Source: Capnocytophaga felis (lineage in GTDB: Bacteria > Bacteroidota > Bacteroidia > Flavobacteriales > Flavobacteriaceae). From it: 64,000 nt of DNA. The translations under genes and the position numbers were made by a program. Positions within the stretch are counted from its first letter, which is position 1. Each line of letters opens with the position of its first letter. Below, one piece after another: positions 5,199-61,029 of the stretch. The DNA is taken from the NCBI RefSeq assembly GCF_009684755.1, contig NZ_BLBC01000011.1, positions 62,001-126,000 of the forward strand. The letters run 5' to 3'. The notes beneath the pieces are model-generated. The model did not search any database, was not told where the DNA came from, and worked only from the letters and a program-made list of their open reading frames with translations.

Positions 5199-5735
5199 AT
5201 GGAAATTGATGATTTAGTAGAAGTTATAGACGACACCATTCAGGGCAAAATAGTTAAAATCAACAAAGACAAAATAACTATTTTAACTCGGGAAGGGTTC
5301 GAACTTTCATTTGACAAATCGGAAGTAGTAAAAATCGAAAAGGAAAATAACCTGAAAATTAACTTCTTTGATTTGGATAATGATTCTCTTCTTAAAAACG
5401 CCGAAAAAAAGAAAAAAGTCATTTCCAAAAAAGAGAAAAAAATCCCTCCGATGGAAGTTGATTTGCATATTCATCAATTGGTAGCTTCTACCAAAAATAT
5501 GACTAATCACGAAATGCTTACACTTCAAATTGAAACCGCCCGAAAGCAATTAGAGTTTGCCATCGAAAAACGAATACAACGCGTCGTTTTTATTCACGGT
5601 GTGGGCGAAGGCGTTCTGCGTACCGAATTGGAATATCTCTTAGGGCGATATAATGTAAAATTCTACGATGCCGAATACAGCAAGTATGGGGTTGGTGCAA
5701 CAGAAGTTTATATTTTTCAAAATAATAAAGAATAA
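5199..5735 (+). CDS. Smr-domain protein (DUF2027/MutS2-like C-terminal domain)
   Basis: This 178-residue protein has two parts. Residues 1-60 form a small beta-rich domain (LVEVIDDTIQGKIVKINKDK) like the DUF2027 N-terminal region of Bacteroidota Smr proteins, followed by a lysine-rich linker. Residues about 85-175 form an Smr domain, with the signature DLHIHQL and the conserved FIHGVGEGVLR loop, ending in GATEVYIF. Smr domains are nucleases or nucleic-acid-binding modules found at the C-terminus of MutS2 and as stand-alone proteins, and are linked to recombination control or ribosome rescue. Which role applies here cannot be told. The gene ends 21 nt before a strong bidirectional terminator. 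Confidence 0.88.
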   Translation: MEIDDLVEVIDDTIQGKIVKINKDKITILTREGFELSFDKSEVVKIEKENNLKINFFDLDNDSLLKNAEKKKKVISKKEKKIPPMEVDLHIHQLVASTKNMTNHEMLTLQIETARKQLEFAIEKRIQRVVFIHGVGEGVLRTELEYLLGRYNVKFYDAEYSKYGVGATEVYIFQNNKE

Positions 5736-6410: not shown

Positions 6411-9107
6411 ATGGAAATTCCGTCAAAATATTTACCTACTTCGGTAGAAAGCAAGTGGTACGAGTATTGGATGAAATACAATTTCTTCCACTCAACTCCC
6501 GATGAAAGAACACCTTACACCATTGTAATCCCCCCGCCAAACGTTACGGGAATTTTGCATATGGGGCATATGCTCAATAACACAATTCAAGATGTACTTA
6601 TCCGCCGTGCAAGGCTAAAAGGTTTCAATGCTTGTTGGGTGCCGGGTACCGACCACGCTTCTATTGCCACCGAAGCCAAAGTAGTGGCAAAGCTCAAAGA
6701 ACAAGGCATTGACAAAGCCGACCTTTCCCGTGAAGAATTCTTAAAACACGCGTGGGATTGGACGCACCAATACGGCGGCGTCATCCTTGAGCAACTCAAA
6801 AAATTGGGTTGTTCGTGCGATTGGGACAGAACCAAATTTACCCTCGATGAGGATATGTACGCCTCTGTTATTAAGGTATTTGTCGATTTATATAACAAAG
6901 GATATATCTACCGCGGATACCGAATGGTCAATTGGGACCCACAAGCGAAAACCACCCTTTCCGATGAAGAAGTAATTTATAAGGAACAAAACGGAAAACT
7001 TTTTTACCTTAAATATTATATCGTTGATGAAAACGCTTCAACATCGCAGAACGGAGATTTTTTGATGGTAGCCACCACGCGTCCTGAAACGATTTTCGGC
7101 GATGTAGCGGTTTGTATCAACCCCAACGATGAGCGTTACAAACATCTGAAAGGCAAAAAAGTAATCGTGCCGATTGTAAATCGTGTTGTGCCAATTATTG
7201 AAGACGAGTATGTGGATATTGAGTTCGGAACGGGTGCTTTGAAAATCACTCCTGCTCACGACAAAAACGACTACGAAATCGGTGAAAAACACAAGTTGGA
7301 AATCATTGATGCCTTCACCGATGAGGGAAAACTCAACGCCTACGGATTGCATTATGAGGGGAAAGACCGATTTGCGGTGCGTAAGGAAATCGCCAAAGAA
7401 TTGGAAGAGAAAAATCTGTTGGAAAAAGTAGAAAATTACCTGAACAAAGTCGGTACTTCGGAGCGTACGGGGGCGGTAATTGAACAACGCCCGCTCGACC
7501 AATGGTTTTTAAAGATGGAAGAACTCGTAAAACCTGCCATCAGTAGTGTTTTGGAGAATGAAGAAATCCATTTCTTCCCAAAAAGATATGAAAATACCTA
7601 TCGCCATTGGATGGAAAACATCCGCGATTGGAATATTTCGCGTCAGCTTTGGTGGGGACAACAAATTCCGGCATACTATATATCCTCCCCCAACCCCTCC
7701 GAAGGAGGGGAGTTCCCAAAAGAATTGGAAAGGCAGTTTGTTGTGGCAGAAAATGAGGAAGAAGCACGAAAATTAGCTATTGAAAAGTTCCCGATATTAG
7801 CAGAGGTTAAAGGAGGATTTTACCTTCGTCAAGACGAAGACGCTTTGGATACTTGGTTCTCTTCGTGGTTGTGGCCAATGAGCGTTTTCGGTGGCATTTT
7901 AAACCCTGATAACGAAGAATACAAATACTATTATCCTACAAACGATTTGGTTACAGGCCCTGATATTATTTTCTTCTGGGTGGCGAGAATGATTATGGCA
8001 GGGTACGAATTCAAAGGGAAAAAACCTTTTACCAATGTCTATTTCACGGGGATTGTTCGCGATAAGCAAGGGCGAAAAATGTCCAAATCGCTTGGAAATT
8101 CACCCGATGCGTTGAAACTCATTGACGATTTTGGGGCGGACGGCGTTCGTGTGGGGCTTTTATTGTCGTCCGCAGCAGGAAATGACTTACTTTTCGATGA
8201 GGCACTTTGTCAGCAAGGTAGCGGATTTGCCAACAAGATTTGGAATGCCTTCCGACTCGTAAAAGGTTGGGAAATTTCGGAAGCTAATCAGTCTGAAAAC
8301 AAGCGAATTGCCATAGAATGGTACCGAAATAAATTCCAAAAAGTACTTGCCGAAACCGAAGACGATTTTGCAAAATACAGAATCTCCGATGCCTTGATGA
8401 AAATCTACAAATTGGTGTGGGACGACTTCTGTTCGTGGCTCTTGGAGATGGTAAAACCTGCTTACGGACAGCCGATTGACCAAAAAACGTTTGCAGAAAT
8501 TATTGCCATTTTTGAAGATAACCTCAAATTGTTGCATCCGTTTATGCCTTTCATCACGGAGGAAATCTGGCAACATATCACCGAACGAAAACCTCAGGAG
8601 GCTCTGGTAGTGGCAAAATATCCTGAAATAACTTCGTTCGATGAGCAGATTTTAGCCGAATTTGATACCGCCGCCGAAGTAATTTCGGGCATCAGAACCG
8701 TGCGAAAAGAGAAAAATATTCCGTTTAAGGAGGAAATGCCCCTTTCGGTACTCAACAACGAACAAACGGCAACAACTTTCGATGTGATTATCGCTAAGCT
8801 GGGCAACTTGTCCGAACTGAAATATGTTATCCAAAAGGTAGAGGGAGCGATTTCGTTCCGAGTGAAGTCCAACGAGTACTTCATTCCGCTGTCGGGAAGC
8901 GTGAATGTGGAAGAGGAAATCAAAAAACTCGAAGAGGAACTCAAATATACGCAAGGCTTTTTGGCTTCGGTGGAGAAAAAACTTTCCAACGAGAAATTTG
9001 TCAGCTCCGCCCCCGAAAAAGTGGTGGAGATGGAACGCAAAAAGCAAGCCGATGCACTGGCGAAGATTGAAACCATTCAGGAGAGCCTTAAAAACCTAAG
9101 AGGGTAA
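6411..9107 (+). CDS. valS: Valyl-tRNA synthetase
   Basis: This 898-residue class I synthetase charges tRNA-Val. The HIGH-type motif is HMGH near residues 51-54 ([15 protein letters not shown]), the KMSKS loop is at about 556-560 ([13 protein letters not shown]), and the editing (CP1) domain spans roughly 190-430. The C-terminal residues from about 820 form the coiled-coil arm ([15 protein letters not shown]) typical of ValRS. One oddity: at about residues 423-440 the chain contains [17 protein letters not shown], encoded by a C/G-rich palindromic element at 7684-7717 that is in frame. ValRS proteins I remember pass directly from IPAYY to a short turn and then FVVAE, so this looks like an in-frame repeat insertion into a tolerated surface loop. 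Confidence 0.96.
7684..7717. repeat. Palindromic repeat element embedded in valS
   Basis: The stretch contains CCCCTCC-GAA-GGAGGGG (7694-7710), a perfect 7-bp inverted repeat flanked by further C- and G-runs. It is far richer in G+C than the surrounding gene. It resembles the dispersed CCTCC/GGAGG palindromes seen between genes in Bacteroidota, but here it is translated in frame. Confidence 0.75.
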
Positions 9108-44242: not shown

Positions 44243-44482
44243 CTACTGATGAAAATAGATTTTTAGCTCTTTCAAAAGCCCGTTTTCAGCTTTCCAAATT
44301 TCGGCAACACTACCACTTTGTGTACTTCCGTCAGGTAAAATCCAATCGTAGTTTCCCAATACAAACGCATTATCTCCTTCTATTATTGTTTGGGCTACCC
44401 GCATTGTTTGGTAGCTTTTGCAAAACCTCTTACACATTTCTATATAAGCCTGTTTTCCCAAAAGAGGCTCTCCATCATTCAT
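44243..44482 (-). pseudogene. NTF2/SnoaL-like protein, N-terminus lost
   Basis: From the ATG at 44482 the frame gives 79 residues: MNDGEPLLGKQAYIEMCKRF ... WKAENGLLKELKIYFHQ. This is the C-terminal two-thirds of an NTF2-like (SnoaL-type) fold, with GEPLLGKQAYIE and GDNAFVLGNYDW strands; the N-terminal helix and first strand are missing. An open frame reaches back to 44557, but that part is antisense-like overlap with the preceding gene and has no family resemblance. The ATG shares its first base with the stop codon of the upstream truncated membrane gene (TAATG). The likeliest history is a deletion that joined two genes. Confidence 0.7.
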
Positions 44483-44691
44483 TATAAAAACAATCCTACA
44501 GCAGCCAATAGTAAATCCCAAGAAATCCAATGCCAGCCACATCGTGCCATTGTCCATTTTTCTATTTTTATGAGATAAGATTTGTCGGATTTATCAGGTT
44601 CATTAACTTTTAACTCTTTATCCCCCATAAATGTATGAATAACAAATGCCAAAAACACAAGAATATTGGCAATCAAGATAAATATATTCAT
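44482..44691 (-). pseudogene. Small membrane protein, C-terminally truncated at a deletion scar
   Basis: A 69-residue frame: one N-terminal helix (FILIANILVFLAFVIHTFMG), then DKELKVNEPDKSDKSYLIKI, EKWTMARCGWHWISWDLLLA and an abrupt stop in the second helix (AVGLFL). From memory, the GDKEL ... KWTMxRCGWHW signature belongs to small integral membrane proteins of about 120 residues with three or four helices, so the end is missing here. The stop is created directly at the junction with the truncated NTF2-like gene. A -7 box (44721-44728) is still present upstream. Confidence 0.6.
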
Positions 44692-44720
44692 TTTTTATCA
44701 AATTTATTAGATAACAGTGG

Positions 44721-44728
44721 CAAAAGTA
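44721..44728 (-). promoter_or_regulatory. -7 box before truncated membrane gene
   Basis: TACTTTTG on the minus strand, 30 nt upstream of the ATG at 44691. Confidence 0.45.
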
Positions 44729-44744
44729 ACGTCTTTAAAATAAA

Positions 44745-44770
44745 AAAATGTTGCCTTATGACAACATTTT
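44745..44770 (-). terminator. Terminator of Crp/Fnr gene at 44.8-45.4 kb
   Basis: Perfect 9-bp stem AAAATGTTG / CAACATTTT, 8-nt loop, followed by T-run on the minus strand, 5 nt after the stop codon. Confidence 0.88.
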
Positions 44771-44774
44771 CAAC

Positions 44775-45359
44775 TTATAGTGAAACTTCCTTTCTAATCC
44801 GACTTAAGGAAGTATGTGTAATCCCTAAATAACTGGCAATCTGCCTTAAAGGTACATTTTTGATTACTTGCGGTTTATCTTTTAGAAATTGTAAATAACG
44901 TTCTTTGGCAGGAAGTGTAATCATTTCGAGTGAGCGTTTTTTTATTTGAAATAACTTTTGGGTCATAAAAAGTCGTCCCCACTCAGCATAGCCCGGAAGA
45001 GAATGATACAATTTCTGAAACTCCTCAAAATCAATTTTCCAAGCCACACAATCGGTTAAAGCGACAATACTTTCAGCACTTGGCAGATGGTTGAATAACG
45101 ATAGTTCTTGCACTATAATCTCATTTGCACAAAAGAAATCTGTTGTAATTTTATTTCCGTTATAATCATAGACAAAACTCCGAACAATGCCGCTTTCCAA
45201 AATCATATAATCCCGAGCTGTTTGTCCTTCCCGTAAGATGTACTCTCCCTTTTTGATTTCAATTCTATAATGAGCCTGTGTAATCTTTTTAAGGTCATTC
45301 CCAAAAATCAATGGATGTGCATATATTTTAGAAAAATCAAGAATATTTGACATTATCAA
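44775..45359 (-). CDS. Crp/Fnr family transcriptional regulator (copy A)
   Basis: A 194-residue regulator. The cyclic-nucleotide-binding-like beta-barrel covers about residues 18-115 (YRIEIKKGEYILREGQTARD, MILESGIVRSFVYDYNGNKI), the long dimer helix about 118-145, and the short HTH at the C-terminus is VPLRQIASYLGITHTSLSRIRKEV. It lacks the Fnr cysteine cluster, and the cAMP-contacting residues are not obvious, so the signal is unknown. The C-terminal HTH is of the compact Bacteroidota type. The start may be the ATG at 45359 or 45353. A paralogue lies at 59196-59765, with two degenerate relatives at 49.9 and 58.1 kb. Confidence 0.88.
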   Translation of the reverse strand: MIMSNILDFSKIYAHPLIFGNDLKKITQAHYRIEIKKGEYILREGQTARDYMILESGIVRSFVYDYNGNKITTDFFCANEIIVQELSLFNHLPSAESIVALTDCVAWKIDFEEFQKLYHSLPGYAEWGRLFMTQKLFQIKKRSLEMITLPAKERYLQFLKDKPQVIKNVPLRQIASYLGITHTSLSRIRKEVSL

Positions 45360-56937: not shown

Positions 56938-57141
56938 CTATCCCCCTTGTGTAGCAGTGATGATAAGCACATTGTCTGAAGTGTTTACAAGCGTTGCCGT
57001 CCATTGCTCTTTGGCAATTACTTTTCCGTTGAGGGCAACGGCGATACCGTTGATTTTTCCGCTGGTAAACGAAAGCACCAATTCCTCCAACAGAGGTTGT
57101 TTTTCAAAATGTACCGATTGATTGTTGATAGTAATTTCCAT
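56938..57141 (-). CDS. thiS: Sulfur-carrier protein ThiS
   Basis: A 67-residue ubiquitin-like protein that ends in the essential Gly-Gly (ITATQGG). It carries sulfur as a C-terminal thiocarboxylate for the thiazole ring, after activation by ThiF. The beta-grasp pattern is clear: MEITINNQSVHFEKQPLLEE, INGIAVALNGKVIAKEQW, NTSDNVLIITATQGG. It is the first gene of the operon and lies about 100 nt downstream of the TPP riboswitch, so the whole pathway is under thiamin control. Confidence 0.95.
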   Translation of the reverse strand: MEITINNQSVHFEKQPLLEELVLSFTSGKINGIAVALNGKVIAKEQWTATLVNTSDNVLIITATQGG

Positions 57142-57242
57142 TTCCGATTGTTTTTAGATGAAAAGAAACGATTTTTGAACTTCGGAAATGTTTTCAGAAA
57201 TATCTATTGAAAGCTATTTCAAAAAGAAGCTATTTTTTTCAC

Positions 57243-57331
57243 TTATTCCCTACGCTATTATGAAATAGATCAGGTTCAAAGGGTAAAATCTCAGCCTGTA
57301 CAAAATACAGACACCCCCAAAGTTTGGGGGC
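57243..57331 (-). promoter_or_regulatory. TPP riboswitch (THI element)
   Basis: On the minus strand, the conserved THI-box segments appear in order: GGGGGTGTC, GGCTGAGATTTTACCC, TTTGAACCTGATC and GCGTAGGGAA. Helices P2-P5 can be drawn. It lies between a good -7 box (57331-57338) and thiS. High TPP should lower expression of the eight-gene operon. The 5' edge overlaps a CCCCCAA-N-TTGGGGG palindrome (57314-57330) that could compete with the aptamer. Confidence 0.95.
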
Positions 57332-57496: not shown

Positions 57497-57524
57497 AAAA
57501 AGCCATCTTTTAAGATGACTTTTT
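57497..57524 (-). terminator. Terminator of small lipoprotein gene
   Basis: 13-bp stem with one mismatch (AAAAAGCCATCTT / AAGATGACTTTTT) followed by T-rich sequence. Confidence 0.65.
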
Positions 57525-57571
57525 AGGATAATAAACTGATTGTTTTTGGAGCTTTATCACTCATTTTTTTG

Positions 57572-57651
57572 TTTTAAGATAAGAGTACTTAAATCAGCGA
57601 CTTTTCTTTAATTTTAAAGTAAGAGTACTTAAATCAGCAACTTTAGTGGAA
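57572..57651. repeat. 40-bp tandem duplication at the 3' end of the lipoprotein gene
   Basis: Units 57572-57611 and 57612-57651 both contain AAGAGTACTTAAATCAGC. As 40 is not a multiple of three, the duplication shifts the frame and places the present stop codon within the second unit. Confidence 0.75.
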
Positions 57652-58019
57652 GGAAATTCAATAGAAACATGACCGATACTTTTTCCCTCTTCTGGCTTGT
57701 AACCTAAATAATAATCTTTCCAATACAGCGTTCCGTCAGTAGTTTTTACTTCATAGAGGGCAGAGTAATAATTGTCATTCGGAGGTGTATTGCTTCCTGC
57801 TACGGGTTGCGGGTAAGTAATCTCGACTTCAATATCTACATAGCCTGCTTGGGAATTTACTGAAATAGTTTCAACTTTCCAACCGTCAGTATTGGTGGCG
57901 ATAGGTTTAGGGGCATTTTGGTTAGGATTCTGATTTTCATCATTGTTACTGCTACCTGAGCAATTTACAAAAAAGATTGTAAGAGCAAAAATTGATAGTA
58001 ATTTTGATAAACGATTCAT
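57594..58019 (-). CDS. Small lipoprotein of unknown function
   Basis: A 141-residue lipoprotein (MNRLSKLLSIFALTIFFVNC, acylated Cys20) with a flexible Ser/Asn/Pro-rich tether (SGSSNNDENQNPNQNAPKP) and a compact beta-rich domain (VETISVNSQAGYVDIEVEIT, YYSALYEVKTTDGTLYWKDY, IGHVSIEFPSTKVADLSTL). No family recognised. The C-terminus has been altered by a 40-bp tandem duplication; the older ending probably read KVADLSTLILKQKNE. Its promoter has a -7 box (58048-58055) and an Fnr/FixK-like palindrome (58078-58093) in place of a -33 box, so it is probably activated by a Crp/Fnr protein. Confidence 0.78.
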   Translation of the reverse strand: MNRLSKLLSIFALTIFFVNCSGSSNNDENQNPNQNAPKPIATNTDGWKVETISVNSQAGYVDIEVEITYPQPVAGSNTPPNDNYYSALYEVKTTDGTLYWKDYYLGYKPEEGKSIGHVSIEFPSTKVADLSTLTLKLKKSR

Positions 58020-58047
58020 TTTTAATTGATTTAATAGATTAACTCTG

Positions 58048-58055
58048 CAAAGGTA
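58048..58055 (-). promoter_or_regulatory. -7 box of small lipoprotein gene
   Basis: TACCTTTG on the minus strand, 28 nt before the ATG at 58019; no -33 element is seen. Confidence 0.6.
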
Positions 58056-58077
58056 TGGAAGCTCTTTAAGTTAATTA

Positions 58078-58093
58078 CTTGACCTAAGTCAAG
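58078..58093. promoter_or_regulatory. Fnr/FixK-type operator TTGAC-N4-GTCAA
   Basis: CTTGACCTAAGTCAAG is a perfect 6-bp-arm palindrome of the Crp/Fnr-superfamily type. Its centre is about 42-44 bp upstream of the start site implied by the -7 box, the class II activator position. Confidence 0.6.
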
Positions 58094-58096
58094 AAA

Positions 58097-58156
58097 TCAC
58101 TTTTTCCTAATTCGGCTTAAAGTAGAATCGGTAATTCCTAAGAAACTGACAGTGTG
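58097..58156 (-). pseudogene. 3' fragment of a Crp/Fnr gene
   Basis: The minus strand encodes HTVSFLGITDSTLSRIRKK and a stop, nearly the same as the last residues of the intact regulator at 59196-59765 (ASFLGITDSTLSRIRKLK). Nothing else of the gene remains upstream. It marks an old duplication or deletion. Confidence 0.75.
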
Positions 58157-58261
58157 TTTTTTGAATCCGATTTTGTCAAATTCAAAGCCTAAAGTTTTAT
58201 AGTGTTTTTTTAACTTTCCATTATAACAAAAGTGTTGTGCATTTGCATTATATAGTCATTA

Positions 58262-59095
58262 TTATGGAAAATCTCGTTGTGGTGAGTCATAGTGTCCTGA
58301 TATCATTCGATAATAGCGTTCAAAGTCACCTTCATTATACTTTGATCCTGTTTCTAAATTATAATAATGAGTGTAGTTATCTTCTCGTAATTCGATTATT
58401 ATTTCTCCATTAGGAAGACGAATAATATTTGCGTTTTCTCCAGTACTGTAATTCAATTTGAATACTTGTATTATTTTATCTTTTTCAAATAATAGTTCAT
58501 TTAATTCTGCTATTTGTTTGCGAGAATTACTATATTGTTGTTCAAAGTTTTTCATTTCGGTTGAGGCGATTTCTTTTTGTTTTTCAAGTTCCTCTCTCAA
58601 TTTGGAAAGAAGTTCTTCATATCTTTCTTTTTCTTTATCTAAATTTGTCTCTAGTTCTCTTATTTTACTTTGAAGAGTTTCGACCATTTTGTTGTGATTG
58701 TTTCTTTCTCTAAAATCAGTCTTTGCTTCTTCCAATTTGATTTCTTCAATAGCCAATTCTCTTTGATTTTCAATAGATTGTTTTTGTTTGTTTATTAAAA
58801 TACTGTTTCTCTTAATTAGTGGATATTTTAATAAAACATCAACTAATAGGTTTAAATAAGGTAAAGCTAAAACATAAAAAATGGTTGAAAAAATAGGATA
58901 AACAAATAGAAAACAAATGCTAGAAAAATTACTCTGAATATATTCTATTTTTTCTTCAATTATTTTTGGAGAAAAAATTATAAATAATATAGGTTTCCAA
59001 TTAAATATAATCCAAGATGTTAAAAAGGCTCCAATAATAGGATTTTTGACTCTTTCTTCTGTTGTTCTAAATAAAGATTGTATAAACTCTTTCAT
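58262..59095 (-). CDS. Membrane-anchored coiled-coil protein of unknown function
   Basis: A 277-residue protein in three parts. Residues 1-95 hold a short amphipathic start (MKEFIQSLFRTTEERVKNPI) and two or three hydrophobic helices (IGAFLTSWIIFNWKPILFII, SICFLFVYPIFSTIFYVLAL). Residues about 100-210 form a long Glu/Lys-rich coiled coil (ETLQSKIRELETNLDKEKER, YEELLSKLREELEKQKEIAS). Residues 215-277 form a small beta-rich domain (ANIIRLPNGEIIIELREDNY, YYNLETGSKYNEGDFERYYR). I remember the EERxKNPIIGAFxxSWIIFNWKP start from unnamed proteins in diverse bacteria, which suggests a mobile accessory gene. It is a single gene beside Crp/Fnr genes. Function unknown. Confidence 0.75.
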   Translation of the reverse strand: MKEFIQSLFRTTEERVKNPIIGAFLTSWIIFNWKPILFIIFSPKIIEEKIEYIQSNFSSICFLFVYPIFSTIFYVLALPYLNLLVDVLLKYPLIKRNSILINKQKQSIENQRELAIEEIKLEEAKTDFRERNNHNKMVETLQSKIRELETNLDKEKERYEELLSKLREELEKQKEIASTEMKNFEQQYSNSRKQIAELNELLFEKDKIIQVFKLNYSTGENANIIRLPNGEIIIELREDNYTHYYNLETGSKYNEGDFERYYRMISGHYDSPQRDFP

Positions 59096-59120
59096 ATTAT
59101 TTGATTATATTATGATTTTG

Positions 59121-59128
59121 CAAAAGTA
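59121..59128 (-). promoter_or_regulatory. -7 box of membrane coiled-coil gene
   Basis: TACTTTTG on the minus strand, 26 nt before the ATG at 59095. Confidence 0.5.
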
Positions 59129-59195
59129 CAAACTGCCTTTGTTTTAACTATGTGTAAGTGGTTTATTTTCAGCGTTATGGATGTAAAATAAAAAA

Positions 59196-59765
59196 TCACT
59201 TCAATTTCCTAATTCTGCTTAAAGTAGAATCAGTGATGCCTAAGAAACTGGCGATGTATTTCAGAGGTACTTCGTGAATGGTTTTGGGTTTTTCGTGTAT
59301 GAGTTTTTGATAGCGTTGTTCGGCACTAAGGGTTTTCAAATCCAGCATTCGGGTTTCGGAGAGAAAGAGTTCGCGTGTCATCCAGTAGCGTCCCCATTCA
59401 CGAAAGGAGGGCATTGTATGATAAAGTTCTTGCACCGTATCCCAATGGAAACGCCAGATTTTACAATCGGTAACCGTTTCCAAAAATTCGGGCGAGGGCA
59501 TTCTGCCAAAAAAAGAAAGCGTTTCTATGGCTAATTCATTTTCAAAGAAAAGTCGGGTGGTGATTTCTTTGTTGTCTGAATCAAAGGTGTAGGTACGCAT
59601 TACGCCTTTTTCGATGATATAATTTTCATTGGAGATTTCGCCTTGTTTTAAGATGATAGTCCCCTTAGGAACTTCCCAATATTGGTGTTTTTGGGCAAGT
59701 ATGTTGAGTTCTTCAGTAGTAAGTTCCGAAGGCTGATAAAAGTTTGTAAATAAAGAAATATCCAT
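59196..59765 (-). CDS. Crp/Fnr family transcriptional regulator (copy B)
   Basis: A 189-residue regulator with a cyclic-nucleotide-binding-like domain at about residues 20-110 (YWEVPKGTIILKQGEISNEN, YIIEKGVMRTYTFDSDNKEI), dimer helix about 115-145 (MPSFREWGRYWMTRELFLSE) and C-terminal HTH VPLKYIASFLGITDSTLSRI. No Fnr-type cysteine cluster is seen. It shares organisation and many residues with copy A at 44775-45359. A fragment of a close relative sits 1.1 kb downstream. It has a good promoter (59850-59879). It is a candidate to bind the TTGAC-N4-GTCAA site at 58078-58093, and its divergent neighbour is a zinc-type exporter. Confidence 0.88.
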   Translation of the reverse strand: MDISLFTNFYQPSELTTEELNILAQKHQYWEVPKGTIILKQGEISNENYIIEKGVMRTYTFDSDNKEITTRLFFENELAIETLSFFGRMPSPEFLETVTDCKIWRFHWDTVQELYHTMPSFREWGRYWMTRELFLSETRMLDLKTLSAEQRYQKLIHEKPKTIHEVPLKYIASFLGITDSTLSRIRKLK

Positions 59766-59849
59766 TTTTTAACGCTTAAATATTGTTGAAAGTGCTTGTA
59801 AAGACCAGTTTTGGGACATAAAAAACCGCTTTGTAAAGCTCTAAAATAA

Positions 59850-59879
59850 CAAAAATATCTTTTTTTAAGAAAAAACAAA
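59850..59879 (-). promoter_or_regulatory. Promoter of Crp/Fnr copy B
   Basis: TTTG (59879-59876), 18-bp spacer, TATTTTTG (59857-59850) on the minus strand. The leader would be about 80 nt. Confidence 0.65.
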
Positions 59880-60057
59880 ATTTTTATTCTCTATAAAAGT
59901 TTGCGAACTAAAGACTTTCGTTGTAAATAGTTGAAAATTATACCTATACAGTTATATCGTAAATAAGAGTGTCTTTTCAATGATAAAATATGTTTCTTAT
60001 CTTATTTATATCTGCTTATTTCCACTTGTTTAACGTGATTTGTAATCCGAAAAACAG

Positions 60058-60065
60058 TACCTTTG
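60058..60065 (+). promoter_or_regulatory. -7 box of cation exporter gene
   Basis: TACCTTTG matches TAnnTTTG, 50 nt before the ATG at 60115. Confidence 0.5.
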
Positions 60066-60114
60066 CAGAGAGAAACAAAAACCGATTGAAACAACAAACT
60101 AAAAATTTAAAGCA

Positions 60115-61029
60115 ATGGAACATTCACACGAAGGACACAGTCATAGCGTGGCGAGTTTGGAGAACATCAACCGAGCTTTTTATATCGGTATCGGGCTGAA
60201 TTTAGTGTACACGATTATTGAATTTGTAGTAGGTTTCCGCATAAATTCCTTGGCACTGATTTCGGATGCGAGTCACAACCTGAGCGATGTTGCCAGTTTG
60301 GTCATTTCGCTTGTCGGACTGAAATTAACGCAGAAAGCAGCCACGTATTCATTCACTTACGGATACAAAAAAGCCTCTATTCTGGCATCGCTCATCAATG
60401 CGGTACTGTTGGTATATATCGCCGTGAAAATCATCGTTGAGGTTATCGAACGCTTTGACGAACCGCCCGAAATGACGGGTGATATGATTATTGTAACAGC
60501 TACTATCGGGGTTATTATCAATGCCTTATCGGCTTTTCTTTTCTACAAAGGACAAAAGCACGATATCAATGTAAAAGGAGCTTTTTTGCATCTGTTGGTA
60601 GATGCTTTGGTATCGGTCGGGGTGATTGTATCGGGGGTAATTATCCATTTCACGGGTTGGGACATTGCCGACGTGCTGACGAGTTTGGTCGTTGCGGTGG
60701 TAATTTTGATTTCCACTTGGAATTTGCTTTCCGAAAGTGTGAAACTTATTCTTGATGGCGTTCCTCAGAGCATAAAAGTGGATAAAATAAAGCAACTTAT
60801 AGCGCAACACCCGAAAATTTGTTCGGTACATCACATTCACATTTGGGCATTGAGTAGCTTGGAAAATGCACTTACGGCACATTTAGTGGTTGAGGACGAT
60901 ATTACTTTTGAAGAAATTGACACAATAAAAAAAGAAATTAAACATACTCTTCAACACGAACATATCGGACACGCTACCTTTGAAATAGAACTTTCAAAAA
61001 TGAAATGCAAGTGTGGTGATTGTCATTGA
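60115..61029 (+). CDS. Cation diffusion facilitator (CzcD/ZitB-type zinc exporter)
   Basis: A 304-residue proton-coupled metal exporter of the inner membrane. The His-rich N-terminus (MEHSHEGHSHS) is followed by six helices. The zinc-site pairs are SDASHNLSD in helix 2 near residues 55-63 and HLLVDALVS in helix 5 near 161-169, which fits the HxxxD / DxxxD signature for Zn (with Cd or Co). The C-terminal cytosolic domain has ICSVHHIHIWALSS near 240-253 with the regulatory metal ligands, and the chain ends in CKCGDCH, an extra Cys/His cluster. It is monocistronic, with a -7 box. Rubble follows. Confidence 0.94.
   Translation: MEHSHEGHSHSVASLENINRAFYIGIGLNLVYTIIEFVVGFRINSLALISDASHNLSDVASLVISLVGLKLTQKAATYSFTYGYKKASILASLINAVLLVYIAVKIIVEVIERFDEPPEMTGDMIIVTATIGVIINALSAFLFYKGQKHDINVKGAFLHLLVDALVSVGVIVSGVIIHFTGWDIADVLTSLVVAVVILISTWNLLSESVKLILDGVPQSIKVDKIKQLIAQHPKICSVHHIHIWALSSLENALTAHLVVEDDITFEEIDTIKKEIKHTLQHEHIGHATFEIELSKMKCKCGDCH

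Follow-up and report, generated by a model that had tools for sequence, protein, structure and literature searches.

Activation by Crp/Fnr-superfamily proteins from class II sites is textbook knowledge. The Bacteroidota use an unusual promoter, whose elements are usually numbered −33 and −7 (a numbering that puts the first T of the TAnnTTTG box at −11), and sites have been defined for few of their activators. Crp/Fnr-superfamily regulators of this phylum include HcpR, PgRsp and CrpPg of Porphyromonas gingivalis; passages of two reports describe HcpR as a haem/NO sensor and CrpPg as both cAMP-independent and a global regulator (PMC12040651, PMC12750200). Unlike HcpR and CrpPg, the regulator discussed here, a protein that we call copy B and that is encoded in a 64,000-nucleotide stretch of Capnocytophaga felis DNA (the whole of which was analyzed and is called "the window" below), is local, and its context suggests that it is probably a single-target activator of the Crp/Fnr superfamily. 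The promoter that it appears to control resembles the class II promoters of E. coli CRP and FNR in having a palindrome centered near −41.5 of the predicted start, no canonical upstream core element and a regulator with the Crp fold. It departs from these textbook cases in its Bacteroidota −7 element of type TAnnTTTG, in its local regulator with about one target, in the position of the operator at a crp stop codon, in its half-sites (TTGAC and related sequences, not the TGTGA of CRP) and in an apparent recognition code. The closest solved sequence to copy B over its full length is the cyclic nucleotide binding regulatory protein 3dn7 of Cytophaga hutchinsonii (E 1.7e-22), for which we know of a structure but of no target or ligand.

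Our scan of the sequence shows that CTTGACCTAAGTCAAG is a perfect 6-N4-6 palindrome, symmetric in 6 of 6 pairs (Table 1), which reads CTTGACTTAGGTCAAG on the minus strand from 58093 to 58078. It encloses, at 58079–58092 and with 0 mismatches, the TTGAC-N4-GTCAA form to which a preliminary description of this DNA had drawn attention, and which has no other exact match in the window. A spacer of 22 bases separates the palindrome from the −7 box TACCTTTG (TAnnTTTG on the minus strand), the palindrome center (58085/58086) lies 30 bp upstream of the first T of that box, and no TTTG is seen 15–24 bp upstream of TACCTTTG, in agreement with the earlier remark that a −33 element is lacking. If the first T of the box is taken as −11, the 30-bp distance puts the center at −41.5 relative to a start that should lie near 58044, about 25 bases before the lipoprotein ATG; the preliminary estimate of 42–44 bp upstream of the start was thus approximately right. 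The intact Crp gene that had been placed nearby is that of copy B, whose stop codon is 1.1 kb from the palindrome, and the Crp fragment that had been noted is a relic: over 72 bp it matches the copy B 3' end at 83%. The relic's in-frame stop codon (58097–58099) is 3 bp from the palindrome, and the recognition helix GITDSTLSRIRK can still be translated from the relic's frame.

Table 1. Features of the copy B locus, and the operator-like palindrome of a second Crp module, in the window (G002, G016 and G019 are other Capnocytophaga genomes)
Feature	Position	Strand	Basis or context
Proposed copy B operator, perfect 6-N4-6 palindrome	58078..58093	-	sequence; kept in G002, G019 and G016
-7 element TAnnTTTG, TACCTTTG	58048..58055	-	sequence; 30 bp from palindrome center
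Transcription start, inferred	58044..58044	-	box position
Target gene, putative lipoprotein, 141 aa	57594..58019	-	ORF, family searches
crp relic: C-terminus, recognition helix GITDSTLSRIRKK and stop codon, without start codon	58097..58159	-	match to copy B 3' end
Membrane/coiled-coil ORF, 277 aa, with its own TACTTTTG box	58262..59095	-	ORF, family searches
Crp/Fnr-superfamily regulator copy B, 189 aa, helix TDSTLSRIRK	59196..59765	-	family match, model
Palindrome of second example, GTTGTCATAAGGCAAC	44750..44765	-	after Crp 44775-45359; 29 bp from TACTTTTG at 44721-44728

Copy B has an N-terminal domain of the cNMP-binding type (PF00027, E 1.6e-12) and a C-terminal helix-turn-helix (HTH) in the Crp fold, and its predicted model (mean pLDDT 94) superimposes on FNR and CRP with Z of about 20 over 186–188 residues. 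We consider it quite probable, from the sequence features described here, that the palindrome is the operator of this local protein and that copy B is a class II activator of the lipoprotein promoter. A copy B dimer would bind both TTGAC half-sites centered at −41.5 and would recruit RNA polymerase to the promoter, where a −7 box is present and a −33 element absent, and the lipoprotein gene would thereby be switched on. The class II reading had been put forward in the preliminary description, and conservation, the offset tests and the covariation of helix and half-site (all below) support it with copy B as the regulator. Copy B might instead bind the palindrome and repress the promoter, as Crp/Fnr proteins can from some positions, and a repressor could occupy a class II position; we think this unlikely, as a center at −41.5 or −40.5 without a −33 element is the geometry of a class II activator, and a repressor needs no such fixed phase.

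The putative lipoprotein has no Pfam or NCBIfam match, and no homologues of it were found in 19 congeneric genomes or in a scan of genome contigs, so conservation had to be followed through the regulator instead. The 277-aa ORF that separates copy B from the relic also has no Pfam or PADLOC match, and its NCBIfam matches are all sub-threshold. The ancestral unit may have been a crp gene with operator, promoter and target directly behind it; one crp copy would then have decayed to its C-terminal relic and a foreign ORF would have come between regulator and operator, while the operator survived together with one complete regulator gene. This arrangement (a relic next to the site, a foreign ORF between site and regulator, and an orphan lipoprotein) is also what might be expected if the palindrome were a decaying, disused remnant left behind with the crp relic. 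That is improbable, however, as the window palindrome is more symmetrical than those of G002 and G019, its box and spacing are intact, and the codon changes that separate copy B from both relatives are mostly synonymous (20 versus 10 codons in one comparison and 34 versus 8 in the other).

Orthologues of copy B are present in three other Capnocytophaga genomes, G002 (96% identical), G019 (95%) and G016 (82%). In G019 (TTTGCCCTATGTCAAG) and G002 (TTTGCTCTATGTCAAG) the site directly follows the crp stop codon and has the same 30-bp phase, with 22 bases to the box (TAGTTTTG and TAGCTTTG, respectively), and it precedes a DUF6252/Riean_0653-like lipoprotein gene whose product is dissimilar to the window lipoprotein, a difference that counts against the proposed reading. 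The same lipoprotein gene is preceded in G016 by TTTGACTTAGGTCAAG, 22 bases and TAATTTTG; there a block of unrelated genes about 6 kb long, with a DNA methyltransferase among them, separates the copy B orthologue from the site, and crp sequence is no longer found upstream of the palindrome. The retention of the G016 site at the lipoprotein gene, in spite of this distance, argues that the palindrome belongs to the target promoter and not to the crp 3' end.

The G016 arrangement bears on the possibility that the palindrome is the terminator hairpin of the adjoining crp gene and that proximity alone holds it before the next promoter. The window palindrome does lie just past the relic's stop codon, and most sites in related loci lie between −7 and +23 nt relative to the crp stop; a T-tract follows 44 of 59 sites in the large clade of Crp proteins with a TDTS helix, so that part of this clade's signal could reflect terminators, and the second site in the window gives a good fold (z −4.7) with a T-run. 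On the other hand, the G016 site is 6 kb from crp, no terminator-like site was found in 57500–60200, sites of the copy B type have no following T-run, and the half-sites in G002 and G019 do not form the hairpin. Nor would a terminator account for a spacing to TAnnTTTG that is fixed at 29–30 bp, for half-sites that covary with the regulator's recognition helix, or for the second copy of the site that often stands before another gene for one Crp. Thus a terminator is very unlikely at the copy B site; for some of the family it is the leading alternative, and a double role is possible in the TDTS clade.

The fixed spacing, which is more than a chance result, was found without any assumption about sequence. 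When every TAnnTTTG box in 60 regions around Capnocytophaga Crp genes (1,685 boxes) was compared with perfect palindromes at every offset, there were 17 at 29 bp and 9 at 30 bp, against 0–7 (typically about 2) at the other offsets. Around 63 Crp loci of other genera, the 29-bp offset had 22 near-perfect palindromes (2–11 at other offsets) and 7 perfect ones (0–3 at other offsets). These two spacings correspond to centers at −40.5 and −41.5, the class II position. Among 195 distinct related Crp genes of the Bacteroidota, 63 have a palindrome and box downstream of the crp stop under strict rules (symmetry of at least 5/6, a strict TAnnTTTG at 29–30 bp, and a position within −20 to +220 of the stop), whereas the antisense and in-gene controls gave 0 and other offsets at most 2. 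A relaxed box rule gave 70 of 195 on the antisense strand against 115 of 194 on the sense strand; under so loose a rule the symmetry of a palindrome yields hits on either strand, and the strict TAnnTTTG test was used instead. A sigma-70 type promoter at the site was also considered and rejected, as a consensus scan gave no excess.

The half-sites vary with the recognition helices of the Crp proteins next to them. Our covariation set comprises 99 Crp genes. For each gene, palindromes no further than 220 bp from the crp stop and with a TTT-bearing box in phase were compared, the top-scoring one was taken, and only sites with a TT[G/A] half-site core were kept; three copy B cases (the window, G002 and G019), which are further off or below 5/6 symmetry, were added by hand. 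Helix residue 2 corresponds to half-site base 1 as Asp with C (73/73), Asn with A (4/4) and Gln with T (3/3), and His at this position goes with G in THTS helices and with A in THEF helices; this association has a permutation p of 0.0006 over 16 sequence clusters. Residue 4 corresponds to base 5 as Thr with A (18/18) and Ser with C or T (72 of 76), a link that is less secure (p 0.08 at the cluster level). Residue 3 is also weakly associated with base 5 (p 0.04), but two TDSS proteins whose sites have C or T at that base point to residue 4 as its likely reader. Within a single cluster of proteins more than 60% identical, those with TDTS, THTS and TNTS helices are found beside CTTG, GTTG and ATTG sites, respectively. 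In a tree built without the HTH there are three supported independent switches at residue 2, and the base follows in 2.8 of the 3 pairings (sign test p = 0.25), with only two pairs for residue 4; this agrees with the proposed code, the independent switches being too few for significance.

In the predicted model, residues D179 and T181 of copy B appear to occupy the positions of CRP R180 and T182, S183 that of FNR S212, and R184 those of CRP R185 and FNR R213, while Ser180 replaces the Glu found at FNR E209. These matches come from counting back from the end of the alignment, where model residue 189 pairs with residue 190 of E. coli CRP and with residue 218 of A. fischeri FNR, and they assume a gapless C-terminus. 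For TDST helices like that of copy B, the promoter-side half-site is CTTGAC (GTCAAG in the other orientation) in 12 of 12 cases, and 9 of these come from automatic detection in other genera; from its TDST helix copy B is therefore expected to read CTTGAC, and the window has CTTGAC on both sides. The genome encodes at least two further Crp-like proteins, and one of them, such as the window's paralogue at 44.8 kb, could in principle read the palindrome in place of copy B. This has very little to recommend it: the helix of that paralogue is THTS, and such proteins stand beside GTTGYC...GGCAAC in 3 of 3 cases.

TTGAC-N4-GTCAA resembles FNR/FixK boxes, and the site shares with those of FNR and FixK2 the TTG...CAA core, as copy B, by the structural match above, appears to share the Ser-Arg pair of FNR. 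The preliminary description had called the palindrome Fnr/FixK-like and had named low oxygen and nitrosative stress as conditions to compare, but neither the label nor such a signal is supported. Copy B has a single cysteine (C101) and so is without the four-Cys ligand set of the FNR [4Fe-4S] cluster, and its scores are far below the cut-offs of the NCBIfam Fnr and CRP models (23 bits against 266 for CRP). Unlike FNR and FixK2 motifs, the motif is not enriched genome-wide: in 2.88 Mb there are 2 exact copies against 1 for the reversed control, and a relaxed CTTGNC-N4-GNCAAG with at most 1 mismatch gives 40 against 41, so a global TTGAC-N4-GTCAA regulon was rejected. The missing enrichment also counts against the operator reading itself. 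As a family label, FNR proper can be dismissed on two grounds, the missing cysteines and the absence of a regulon, and "Fnr/FixK-like" describes a resemblance and nothing further. In view of these facts and of targets that are neighboring genes, a true global regulon of the FNR/FixK type, responding to oxygen or nitric oxide, can hardly be entertained, although the form of the box could be cited for it. The enrichment of sites at class II positions that had been proposed as a check is present locally, beside Crp genes and with a half-site that differs among Crp subfamilies, and absent for the motif genome-wide; the motif by itself is not striking, while its context and conservation are.

A second Crp module in the window (44243–45359, minus strand) consists of a THTS-type Crp, GTTGTCATAAGGCAAC, TACTTTTG and then a SnoaL-like ORF. 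(The N-terminus of this ORF differs from those of its homologues in loci L169 and L173, perhaps through a frameshift.) The usual targets of related modules are next door and are surface proteins or small enzymes; they include VOC/glyoxalase-like, DinB, SnoaL-like and membrane proteins and lipoproteins. Some single Crp proteins have two or three near-identical operators (at 7869 and 8399 in L083, and at 5380, 6174 and 6694 in L089), which precede DinB, VOC and SnoaL-like genes. With neighboring targets and few sites per Crp, the related Crp proteins look like local regulators. We lean, on balance, toward the view that a large, Bacteroidota-wide family of short regulators of the Crp/Fnr type is organized in self-contained modules with 1–3 targets each, with the operator at the regulator's own stop codon and at −40.5/−41.5 of a TAnnTTTG promoter, and that specificity in this family diverges by a simple code in which residue 2 (the CRP Arg180 position) corresponds to base 1 (D-C, N-A, Q-T and, in THTS helices, H-G) and residue 4 (the CRP Thr182 position) to base 5 (T-A and S-C/T).

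If this is true, operators could be predicted from protein sequence, so that the recognition helix of a Crp paralogue not yet characterized would indicate its operator, and promoters would keep their regulator while target genes change. It would also give a concrete position, −40.5/−41.5 relative to the −7 box, where Crp/Fnr proteins seem to work with the Bacteroidota promoter, and simple single-regulator modules in which activation of the Bacteroidota polymerase could be studied. We found no earlier description of the layout or the code in the open-access literature searched. Very similar crp-site-SnoaL modules are present in Tannerella forsythia (L169) and Capnocytophaga cynodegmi (L173), which belong to different orders, suggesting transfer between oral Bacteroidota.

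G002 and G019 each have an orphan second copy of the promoter (L009 and L010, near 1501–1575), which includes the closest match to the window promoter (82% over 61 columns); this suggests an ancestral locus with a pair of such promoters, later rearranged by deletion or recombination. The orphan palindrome promoters follow an outer-membrane protein gene and have no evident downstream gene on the same strand, so a small RNA or a lost target might be considered. A gene for an HxlR-type regulator lies close upstream of the copy B orthologues in L005, L006 and L075 (PF01638 was tested in L006) and is not seen at the corresponding place in the window. Beyond the lipoprotein gene, at 57229–57328 on the minus strand, the window has a TPP riboswitch (Rfam RF00059, 64.7 bits) upstream of a thiS ORF (56938–57141).
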